Both the position numbers and the translations under genes were made by a program. Of a DNA stretch of 64,000 nt, positions 23,970 to 44,676 are shown in pieces. Source of the DNA: Elusimicrobia bacterium GWF2_62_30. GTDB lineage: Bacteria > Elusimicrobiota > Elusimicrobia > Elusimicrobiales > UBA9959. The notes under the pieces are model-generated. The model did no database searches. It was not told the DNA's origin and worked only from the letters and a program-made list of their open reading frames with translations. Every line of letters begins with the position of its first letter. Within the stretch, counting starts at the first letter, position 1. The stretch covers positions 45,875 through 109,874 of the forward strand of contig MGUK01000039.1 in assembly GCA_001799995.1 (NCBI GenBank), written 5' to 3'.

Positions 23970-24466
23970 TGCCCTTCCTGACCGACGAATTCAAGGAGAA
24001 AGCGGCGCGCCTGTGCGCTAAATACCCGCGCAAGGACGCGGCGCTCATCCCGCTGCTGCTGGAGCTGCAGAAGGAAAAAGGGTTCGTGGCGGAAGACGCC
24101 ATGGACGCGCTGGCCAAATTCCTGGAGCTGCCTTACGCGCGGGTCAAAGGCGTGGTCACCTTTTACACGATGTTCAACCGGGAGCCGGTGGGGAAATACC
24201 ACCTGCAGGTCTGCCGCAATATTTCCTGCCACATGGCCGGGGCGCCGGACATCCTAGCGCACCTGAAAGGGAAACTCGGCATAGCCGAGGGGGAAACCAC
24301 CCGGGACGGCCTGTTCACTCTTTCCACCGTGGAATGCCTGGGCGCCTGCGGCGCCGCGCCCGTGATGCAGGTGAACGACGACTATTTCGAAAGCCTGACG
24401 GTAGAAAAGCTTAACACAGTACTTGATGATCTGAAACATGGCCGTCTGAGGGCCAGAGGCCTTTGA
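23969..24466 (+). CDS. nuoE: NADH-quinone oxidoreductase subunit E
   Basis: Internal ATG of the 23858..24466 ORF. Thioredoxin-like 2Fe-2S VCRNISCHMAG and VECLGACGAAP. Confidence 0.95.
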   Translation: MPFLTDEFKEKAARLCAKYPRKDAALIPLLLELQKEKGFVAEDAMDALAKFLELPYARVKGVVTFYTMFNREPVGKYHLQVCRNISCHMAGAPDILAHLKGKLGIAEGETTRDGLFTLSTVECLGACGAAPVMQVNDDYFESLTVEKLNTVLDDLKHGRLRARGL

Positions 24467-24527
24467 TACGGCACCTGCATAGGTCGTCTGATGGGCATAG
24501 CCCTAGATACGGCACAGCCATAGGCTA
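24440..24527. repeat. Two tandem units of a short structured repeat (GYCGTCT..stem-loop..TACGGCAC + second hairpin)
   Basis: Unit 1 GGCCGTCTGAGGGCCAGAGGCCTTTGATACGGCACCTGCATAGGT. Unit 2 GGTCGTCTGATGGGCATAGCCCTAGATACGGCACAGCCATAGGCTAGC. Related unit at 42108..42151. Confidence 0.8.
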
Positions 24528-24530
24528 GCA

Positions 24531-40278: not shown

Positions 40279-40737
40279 TTACAGGTTCTTGAACAGGTTC
40301 GCCATCTCTATCGCGGACATGGCGGCCTCGGAGCCCTTGTTGCCGTGCTTGACGCCGGCGCGCTCAATGGCCTGCTCCAGCGTCTCGGTGGTTATCACGC
40401 CGAACGCCACGGGGACCTTGTGCTTCATGGAAACGGCGGCTATGCCCTTGGCCGTCTCCTGCGCGACGAAGTCGAAGTGGGGGGTATCGCCTTTAATGAC
40501 CGCGCCCAGGCAGATGATGGCGTCGTAGGGCCCGGCGGCGAGCTTCTCGCACACCACGGGGATCTCGTAAGCGCCGGGCGTCTTGACCACGGTGATGTCC
40601 TTCTCGTCCGCGCCGTGGCGCTTGAGCGTGTCCACCGCCCCGTCCAGCAGCCGGCTGGTGAGGAAGTCGTTGAAGCGCGACACCACTATCGCGAATTTAA
40701 GCTTGCCCGCGTTGAAACCGCCTTCTATAGTTTTCAT
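40279..40737 (-). CDS. ribH: 6,7-dimethyl-8-ribityllumazine synthase
   Basis: [46 protein letters not shown]. Confidence 0.97.
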
Positions 40738-41954
40738 TTTTTCTCCTGTCCGCTCCCGATAAGATGCCCCATTTTATCTTTCTTCGTCTTCAGGTAACGC
40801 GCGTTGTGCCGGTTGGGGCCTATTACCAGCGGCACGCGCTCCTTGATCTCCAGGCCATAGCCTTTCAGGCCCACTATCTTGCGGGGATTGTTGGTTATAA
40901 GCCTCAGGCGGTGAAGCCCCAGCGAGCAGAGTATCTGGGCGCCTATGCCGTAATCGCGCAGGTCGGCGGCAAAGCCGAGCGCCTCGTTGGCGGTGACGGT
41001 ATCGTAGCCCTTGTCCTGCAGGCTGTAGGCCTTGATCTTGTTGCCCAGGCCTATGCCGCGCCCTTCCTGCCGCATGTAAAGGATGGCCCCGGCGCCTTCA
41101 GCCGCTATCAGGCGCATGGCGGCCTGCAGTTGGGGGCCGCAGTCGCAGCGGCGGGAGCCGAACACGTCGCCGGTCAGGCATTCCGAGTGCACCCGGACCA
41201 GCGCCGGGTCGCCTATCCTGCCCAGAGTAAGCGCCACATGTTCCAGGCCGGTCAGCCTTTCCTTATATATAGCGATATCGAAAGTGCCGTACTTGGTGGG
41301 CAGGGTGGAAACGGCCGTTTTCTCCACAAGGGTCTCCTTGCGGCGGCGGTAGGCGATAAGGTCGGCGATGGTGCCCAGTTTCAGCTTGTGGCGCGCGGCG
41401 AAGCGCGCCAGCTCGGGCAGCCTGGCCATGGTGCCGTCGGGGTTCATGATCTCGCAGATCACGCCCGCGCCGGGCAGACCGGCCAGTTTTATCAGGTCGG
41501 TGCAAGCCTCCGTATGGCCGGCCCTGGCCAGCACGCCGCCCTTGCGGGCCTTGAGGGGGAAGATGTGCCCGGGCCGGGTGAGGTCCGAAGGCAAAGCGCC
41601 GGGATCGGAAAGTATCTTAAGGGTGCGGGCCCGGTCCGCGGCGGAGATGCCGGTAGTCACGCCCTCGGCGGCATCCACGGAGATCAGCCAGTTGGTCTTG
41701 TACGGGTCGGTATTGTCGCGCTCCATCTGGAACAGGTTCAGGGCGGAGGCCCGGTCCTCTTCCAGCGGGGCGCAGATAAGGCCGCGCCCGTATTTAGCCA
41801 TGAAGTTGATCTTGCCCGCGGTAGCGAAACGCCCGGCCAGGACCAGGTCGCCTTCGTTCTCGCGCGCCTCGTCGTCGGTCAGTATCACCATCCGGCCGCG
41901 CCGGATCTCGCCGATTATCTCTTCCGCGGGAGAGAACATGTTCATTTTAGTCAT
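40734..41954 (-). CDS. ribBA: 3,4-DHBP synthase / GTP cyclohydrolase II
   Basis: [58 protein letters not shown]. Confidence 0.96.
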
Positions 41955-41985
41955 AAAAAAAGCCCTGAAGAACCGTCTTCAGGGC
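41955..41985 (-). terminator. Riboswitch expression-platform terminator
   Basis: Minus RNA GCCCUGAAGA-CGGU-UCUUCAGGGC-UUUUUUU directly before the ribBA AUG. Confidence 0.9.
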
Positions 41986-42045
41986 CGCAACGCAGTCCGG
42001 GTAAGCGGCAAGGCGGCTTAATGCCCGCCCTGCCTTACGCCGCTC

Positions 42046-42209
42046 GTTCTTCTTTCATCCGGACTTTACCGTCGGCCCCGGAATTTAACCGGGTCTGCCG
42101 CGGGCTTGGCCGTCTTGCGCATAGCGCTTGGTACGGCACAGCCATTGGCTTGCGGGCTTCCATCGCTGGTTACCGCCGGTGGGGAATTTCGCCCCGCCCT
42201 GAAGAACTT
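42046..42209 (-). promoter_or_regulatory. FMN riboswitch aptamer
   Basis: Minus strand AGTTCTTCAGGGCGGGGCGAAATTCCCCACCGGCGGTA...AAGCCCGC...GCAGACCCGGTTAAATTCCGGGGCCGACGGTAAAGTCCGGATG...GAAGAAC, upstream of ribBA. Confidence 0.96.
42108..42151. repeat. Third unit of the structured repeat, inside the FMN aptamer variable arm
   Basis: GGCCGTCTTGCGCATAGCGCTTGGTACGGCACAGCCATTGGCTT. Flanked by 8-bp direct repeats GCGGGCTT (42100-42107 and 42152-42159). Confidence 0.75.
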
Positions 42210-42239
42210 ATTTAATTATACAAAAAACACCGCCGCCGG

Positions 42240-43458: not shown

Positions 43459-44451
43459 TTAGTTCAGGGAAACCACTCCCCCGGCGCTGGCCAGCAGGGC
43501 CGCGAAGGGGGAATATTCCAGGGTCCCGTCGAGGTCGGTGCGGAAGATCTGCGCGCCGGCGGCCGCCAGCCTGTCCAGGGCGGCCGGGGTCGGATGGCCG
43601 TAATTATTCTTACCTACCTCTATATAGGCCTTGGCCGGCTTCACAACGTTAAGAAAGGCCTGGGAGGAAGAATACTTGCTGCCGTGGTGGCCCACCTTGA
43701 GAACGTCCGCCTTAAGTTCGCTGCCGAAAGCGGCCACCATCCGGGCTTCTATCGCGGCGGAAGCGTCCCCGGTAAAAAGCACGGAGGCGCCCCGGTAAGA
43801 AAGTTTAAGGACGATGGAACAATCGTTAACGTTCTCACCGGAACTTTTCTGCTGGGCCGGGCAGGAATTAAAAACTTTAGCGCCTACGCCGCCCGCGCCC
43901 CATGAGAGGCTGTCGCCGGGGGCGGGATAAACGGTGTTGACGCCCAAAGAGCTTACCTGGTCGCGCAGCTTATTGTCGGTGGAGGCGCCGGTATTATCCA
44001 GGCGGGTATCATAGAAGTTGCCGACGCTGAGATTGGAGAAAACGTACTGAAGTCCGTTGTAATGGTCGGAATGGGGGTGGGTGAGCACGACATGGTCTAT
44101 TTTGGTAACGTTCTTGCCGGCAAAAAAAGAAGCCAGGCCGGCGCCGGAGGCGGAGGGGCCGCCGTCAATAAGGGCGTTCTGCCCGTTGGGCAGTTCAATG
44201 TAGATCGCGTCGCCCTGGCCCACGCTGAGGAAATATACATTAAAGCCGGGCGCCGCGGTGTAGCGGGTAGCCTCGGAAGGCGCGGGAGCCAGCGGCACCT
44301 CTGTCCCGGAAGCCGAAAAGGCCAGCTGGCTGAACGCCTGCGCGTTCAACCGGGCGGGGGAGAGCCATAGCGCGGAGAGAAGCAGGAACAAAGCCGCGGT
44401 CTGGGCTTTGCGTATAACGGGTGCTGGAGAATTAAGTGTCACACGATGCAT
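43459..44451 (-). CDS. Secreted MBL-fold hydrolase, ComEC C-terminal-domain-like
   Basis: VYFLSVGQGDAIYIELPNGQNALIDGG, VVLTHPHSDHYNGL, LFTGDAS, VLKVGHHGSKYSSS. ATG at 44451 has GGGAGG SD. Confidence 0.9.
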   Translation of the reverse strand: MHRVTLNSPAPVIRKAQTAALFLLLSALWLSPARLNAQAFSQLAFSASGTEVPLAPAPSEATRYTAAPGFNVYFLSVGQGDAIYIELPNGQNALIDGGPSASGAGLASFFAGKNVTKIDHVVLTHPHSDHYNGLQYVFSNLSVGNFYDTRLDNTGASTDNKLRDQVSSLGVNTVYPAPGDSLSWGAGGVGAKVFNSCPAQQKSSGENVNDCSIVLKLSYRGASVLFTGDASAAIEARMVAAFGSELKADVLKVGHHGSKYSSSQAFLNVVKPAKAYIEVGKNNYGHPTPAALDRLAAAGAQIFRTDLDGTLEYSPFAALLASAGGVVSLN

Positions 44452-44560
44452 ATCCACCTCCCGAAGCGCGCAGGCGTTTACCGAACCGAGGCCTGCGTCG
44501 CTGCAGTGGTGAATCCGGATTAAGGTCCGGAGGTGGATACTCCCCGGCCTATCCCGGGGA
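44451..44560 (-). promoter_or_regulatory. Structured 5' leader sequestering the SD of the MBL gene
   Basis: TATCCACCTCC (44451-44461) is perfectly complementary to GGAGGTGGATA (44529-44539), covering the SD. Extra hairpins at 44469-44497 and 44541-44560. Confidence 0.6.
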
Positions 44561-44676
44561 TTACACAGCAGCTGGGTATACGATAACTCCAGGATTGATT
44601 TTGCTCAAGGGCCAAAGGACCTATGCCAATATAGGCCCTAAGTCCTATTTTCGAAAGCTGGGCCTGTGGTGGCGGC

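Follow-up and report, generated by a model that had tools for sequence, protein, structure and literature searches.

The window analysed here is the whole 64,000-nt stretch of contig MGUK01000039.1 from Elusimicrobia bacterium GWF2_62_30 (genome G000). Its minus strand carries the ribBA gene (40734–41954; DHBP synthase and GTP cyclohydrolase II), the first gene of a regulated rib operon that continues 3′ with ribH, ribD and ribE. Upstream of ribBA is an FMN riboswitch aptamer (42043–42210, minus strand), which matches the RF00050 covariance model with 115.7 bits and an E-value = 2.8e-26, above the gathering threshold of 66.2. An intrinsic terminator with the sequence GGCCCTGAAGACGGTTCTTCAGGGCTTTTTTT (41961–41986, minus strand) is situated between the aptamer and the ribBA start codon and forms the expression platform. 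The terminator is strong, and the P1 5′ strand UCUUCAGGGC recurs in its 3′ arm, which would fit a terminator/antiterminator platform. Both the terminator and the rib genes are intact. The position as a rib gene leader with a terminator agrees with the assignment as an FMN riboswitch, and the locus resembles the standard RFN element (RF00050) in its full aptamer, its place upstream of rib genes and its terminator platform. It differs from the standard in that the variable arm is partly built from a dispersed repeat.

P4 is the variable arm of the FMN riboswitch and lies outside the FMN pocket, as is also evident from the Rfam alignment. In G000 this arm holds a repeat element of 44 nt (42108–42151, minus strand), which is 46 nt long in the sister genome G004; the G000 copy has lost 2 nt. 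The element stands between two perfect copies of an 8-bp sequence, GCGGGCTT, at 42100–42107 and 42152–42159 (AAGCCCGC in the RNA sense). The 5′ copy (42152–42159, minus strand) is the conserved 3′ strand of P3, and the 3′ copy (42100–42107, minus strand) is the 5′ strand of the native P4 hairpin. The native 3′ base of P4 (GGC) is found at 42097–42099, minus strand. The initial annotation had given exactly these positions for the repeat and its flanks and had placed the insertion in a peripheral arm with the core left intact; the RF00050 alignment bears this out, since its core positions have a high posterior probability and the variable arm takes up the insert. It had also likened the insert to a repeat unit at the nuoE/nuoF junction, and the likeness is real (81% over 48 positions). 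Against the covariance model of the repeat family the FMN copy has an E-value of 1.2e-14 and the nuo copy one of 5.8e-15.

The nuoE/nuoF junction displays two tandem, diverged copies of the element (24434–24530, minus strand). The first supplies the end of NuoE, with the last residues HGRLRARGL and the stop codon. In relatives this junction is found in empty, single-unit and degraded versions.

A plain sequence search shows copies of the repeat on contigs C6, C98, C95, C39, C80 and C48 of G000. The covariance model (A1; R1), built from ten copies, finds about 18 copies in this genome with an E-value of 1e-3 or better, in agreement with the spreading repeat that had been proposed from the window. 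All 32 genus members carry the repeat, as do 52 of the 59 family genomes listed, with up to 68 copies per genome in a fuller search. Outside the family there is one weak match among 176 other genomes of the class, and an exact-pattern scan of genome contigs gives matches in Elusimicrobia MAGs only. The repeat is specific to one Elusimicrobiota family and is essentially absent elsewhere in the class. An Rfam scan yields no family match at the element itself.

The repeat consensus, in the riboswitch sense, is (C)AAGSCTATGSCNGTGCCGYATCAAGCGCTATGCGCATCAGACGGC(CAA). It folds into two hairpins, with stems of 3 and 4 bp plus a 5-bp stem; a GSC-TAT-GSC hairpin is followed by GCCGY...RCGGC around a 4-bp hairpin whose loop is TAT. 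Among 56 distinct copies 98.8% of cells are paired and there are 87 double changes. The covariation is 0.346 versus 0.102 when shuffled and 0.083 or less when slid, and is compatible with an RNA structure and with a single-stranded DNA structure alike. Other genomes carry tandem arrays with an exact 46-nt spacing, e.g. G016:C56 67471/67517/67563. The element, which is short, structured, present in many copies and mostly intergenic, is REP-like in the broad sense.

The 46-bp unit is also found embedded in larger composite repeats with pairing outer arms (L245–L250, L254–L260, L082, L091–L093, L096, L102, L281 and L283). Beside the element copy at L053:1535–1580 the 8-mer AGACGGCC is present four times in tandem. 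Another kind of structured repeat, which has hairpins with GCGCATAGCGC and CCCGCTATGCGGG, is found around positions 1480–1570 of L012, L014 and L015 and is possibly related to the element through its TAT loops. In the reverse sense the element consensus GGCCGTCTGA is similar to GCCGTCTGAA, the DNA uptake word of Neisseria. This likeness is probably a coincidence, since the matching stem base covaries in the element.

FMN aptamers of genus relatives are mostly 116–127 nt long. The arm of the nearest relative, G004, reads GGGAGCCCGC[AAGCCTATGGCTGTGCCGTATCAAGCGCTATGCGCATCAGACGGCC]AAGCCCGCAGGGGCAGA, where the insert is exactly 46 nt. Three relatives with the same arm type (G018, G021 and G155) are empty and read AAGCCCGCAAGCCCGC(A/G)AGGGCAGA; here AAGCCCGCAAGCCCGC is a tandem of two native strands, that of P3 in the core and that of the P4 hairpin. 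The initial annotation had called for a search for such empty sites in relatives, and had reasoned that an arm shared by all relatives would speak against an insertion; the relatives differ. The element has been inserted as a unit in the riboswitch arm, as confirmed by the empty relatives. The G000 and G004 copies of the element differ by two substitutions and the 2-nt loss in G000. One substitution is in a loop and the other in a joiner, the 2 nt were lost from the joiner, and the element stems are unchanged. The native P4 hairpin of G000 has lost 3 nt relative to G004. Rfam scores of the aptamers with an insert are 115.7, 113.9 and 106.1, and those of empty genus relatives are 107–120, in keeping with an intact core.

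Empty and filled sites are found elsewhere as well. The rplN-rplX junction, compared in 30 genomes, is filled in G000, G003, G004, G011, G019, G021, G027 and G030 and reads empty in the others. The change is GAAGTAATTTA[46 nt]ATAAGGCGG, with a TA repeat of at most 2 bp and with the rplN stop kept; the G004 junction contains several element units. At the intergenic locus L066 G000 has the element and relatives lack it; the flanks are TTG/TTG. The insert length is 46–47 nt at five sites, the FMN, rplN-rplX and L066 sites among them.

The G019 riboswitch carries an element copy at the same arm position (AAGCC...AAGCC). In a RibBA protein tree G000 and G004 are paired (100/97) and G019 belongs to a clade (100/98) in which all the other genomes are empty; a tree built from DNA gives G019 no firm place. 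In G033, which belongs to another genus, a diverged reverse-sense copy is situated in the P3 extension loop (23 bits, E-value = 0.0013). The FMN riboswitches of G000, G004, G019 and G033 all precede ribBA. All genomes compared are MAGs, with the G019 and G033 inserts each taken from one assembly, and among them the element has entered the FMN riboswitch independently at least twice and probably three times.

Element copies are also seen at riboswitches of other kinds. At L106:1501–1614 (G014) a copy and the 5′ strand of P1 in a 2dG-II riboswitch overlap; at L105:1990–2118 (G002) the start of a copy is one base past the 5′ end of a c-di-GMP-I aptamer. Three successive copies are found upstream of the G035 FMN riboswitch (L048:509–791). 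The G034 FMN aptamer (L049) displays in its last arm a long GC-rich hairpin of another kind (GACGGT...TAAAGTCC). The window itself contains a 2dG-II purine riboswitch (44501–44571, minus strand) upstream of a metallo-beta-lactamase-fold gene (43459–44457). It could be supposed that the family prefers hairpin loops of structured RNAs as safe landing sites and that in G000 the element has become a working strand of P4. The sites behind this joint reading are FMN P4 twice, FMN P3 once, the 2dG-II P1 base and the position beside c-di-GMP-I; the clustering of copies at riboswitches is a post hoc observation, the case having been found from one riboswitch, and the reading as a whole is quite doubtful.

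The perfect 8-bp flanks suggest a classical MITE- or IS-type transposition, and the initial annotation had seen in them a footprint like that of a target-site duplication, with the suspicion that one copy might be native. The suspicion was right as to native sequence, but it is both copies that are native and not one, because the tandem pair is present in relatives without any insertion. The 8-bp footprint is not seen at other copies either, a result that the initial annotation had named as evidence against its reading. The flanks of 54 simple copies agree over no more than 2–4 bp, typically CAA...CAA; the trinucleotides flanking the 43-nt core are equal in 19 of these copies (CAA/CAA) versus 11.2 when shuffled, a difference confounded by relatedness. 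Copies inside genes or gene remnants show a 3- or 4-bp flank match, CAA or CAAA. MITE terminal inverted repeats (15–30 bp) are absent from the aligned copies inspected, the ends sharing approximately 4 complementary bases. The native tandem and the flanks of the simple copies lead us to reject an 8-bp target-site duplication, and transposition of this type is very improbable. The junction is short and CAA-like, without an 8-bp duplication. The CAA may be a duplicated target or, equally well, a target with which the element also ends; in IS200/IS605-type insertion the target also forms the element end. FMN variable arms vary in length among relatives, so the enlarged arm might be thought an old, vertically inherited feature from which the dispersed repeats derive. 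However, the aptamers of most genus members are short and lack the element, and the repeat occurs family-wide, also in genomes with an empty riboswitch. This distribution makes it hardly credible at all that the repeat arose from the riboswitch arm, and that reading is rejected.

As to how the unit moves, none of 30 Y1_Tnp loci has an element copy with an E-value below 0.08 within 1.5 kb, and linkage to a RAYT/Y1 transposase is rejected on this ground. Y1_Tnp genes are common in the genus, and the copy-rich genomes G003 and G015 show no Y1_Tnp match. An IS91/Y2 transposase was considered on account of copies in putative decayed IS91-type genes (G004 and G027, read from protein fragments) and of CAAG-like targets. 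Four element copies lie near 16 Y2 loci. Y2_Tnp is found in only 8 of the 37 genomes searched and is absent from G000 and from the copy-rich G006; this candidate is rejected because Y2_Tnp is missing from most carriers. A mobilising enzyme was thus not found among the Y1_Tnp and Y2_Tnp loci examined. Spread without a transposase, by replication template switching or gene conversion through microhomology (CAA, AAGCC) combined with tandem slippage, agrees with the lack of a linked transposase, with sites at CAA-like microhomology whose overlap varies from 2 to 4 bp and with the tandem arrays of exact units. But a unit of constant length (46–47 nt) whose ends are the same at five unrelated sites looks enzyme-recognised, as do the conserved hairpins, and such a route is possible rather than probable. 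The strong covariation, and the stems that stay the same in G000 and G004 while loop and joiner differ, would also suit an element that is retained because it serves the transcript, by binding a protein at its hairpins, by affecting RNA stability or by attenuation. Its copy in the riboswitch would then be a second control of the rib mRNA. The reverse orientation in G033, the empty sites of most relatives and the copies in decayed genes make this unlikely, and the covariation is equally expected if mobility needs a single-stranded DNA structure.

The locus is very probably explained by the insertion, as a unit, of a family-specific REP-like 46-bp repeat into the P4 arm of the ribBA FMN riboswitch. 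This explanation is built on the repeat family, the covariation of its fold, the empty and filled sites and the independent repeats of the event. The repeat would have entered the arm in the common ancestor of G000 and G004. It would act as a REP-type non-autonomous element whose single strand folds into the two covarying hairpins, which spreads to intergenic sites, forms exact 46-bp tandems and appears to prefer a short CAA/TTG-like target. Tentatively, a trans-acting enzyme that works on the hairpin single-stranded DNA might mobilise it. The junction would re-create the arm base, since the target had CAAGCC and the element starts with AAGCC. In the transcript the insert may then lengthen P4 into a single rod, and with the rod outside the FMN-binding core the aptamer and the terminator should still work. 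A later 3-nt deletion in G000 would have removed the native P4 hairpin.

Predicted folds of the G000, G004 and G019 aptamers keep P1, P2, P3, P5 and P6. The predicted rod of G000 and G019 consists of the P4 base GCC/GGC, followed by GGCU/AGCC, GCCGU/ACGGC and GCGC/GCGC. The GGCU/AGCC pairing would be formed by the element and the downstream native AAGCC (in G000, GGCU at 42140–42143 and AGCC at 42103–42106). For the whole G004 aptamer the minimum-energy structure shows three hairpins, whereas the isolated arm prefers the rod; which of the two forms appears to depend on context in these models. In G000 the rod is favoured and the element GCC strand (42147–42149) is predicted to close P4 with the native GGC, because the 3-nt loss breaks the native hairpin. 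By these predictions, one of the two strands of the lengthened P4 rod in G000 would come from the element.

The element shares with REP elements of the GTAG type, which are associated with RAYT/TnpA-REP (PMC8266576, PMC3733652), its short length, intergenic position and single-strand fold, its occurrence as singletons, inverted pairs and tandems, and a genus-level spread. It differs from them in having no GTAG tag, two hairpins rather than one palindrome and no Y1_Tnp neighbour; an unpaired GTAG tetranucleotide at one end is absent from the consensus and from the aligned copies. For the CGTC-tagged REPs, which include Rickettsia RPE-4/RPE-6 and Neisseria dRS3, a dedicated transposase is not known (PMC3733652). 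Like these, the element is a small palindromic repeat without a dedicated transposase, and RPEs also enter genes. One end of the element carries GGCCGTC in the reverse sense, as in CGTC REPs. However, its CGTC forms part of a covarying stem (GCCGT/ACGGC with GCCGC/GCGGC), and it is a fixed 46-bp two-hairpin unit, while CGTC REPs have an unpaired tag and a single stem of 8–9 bp. The paper on CGTC REPs makes no mention of Elusimicrobia (PMC3733652). The element is a REP-like repeat family which fails the tags of both named REP superfamilies and is new to Rfam and to the literature searched, which yielded no paper that describes this repeat in Elusimicrobia and none on a riboswitch aptamer that contains a repeat.

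Among published cases the nearest one found is a pneumococcal BOX element that stands upstream of trp with a T-box on either side (PMC3049150). Both are mobile structured repeats that form a composite leader with riboswitches. The BOX element lies between riboswitches, whereas the element reported here lies inside an aptamer arm, and the two sequences are unrelated. The phylum is little studied for repeats, and the family adds one whose unit length, fold and insertion footprint are clear. The empty and filled sister riboswitches are a natural experiment on how a ligand-binding RNA may tolerate a mobile repeat and make it part of itself. Should the riboswitch still be functional, this would be one route by which riboswitch variable arms arise.
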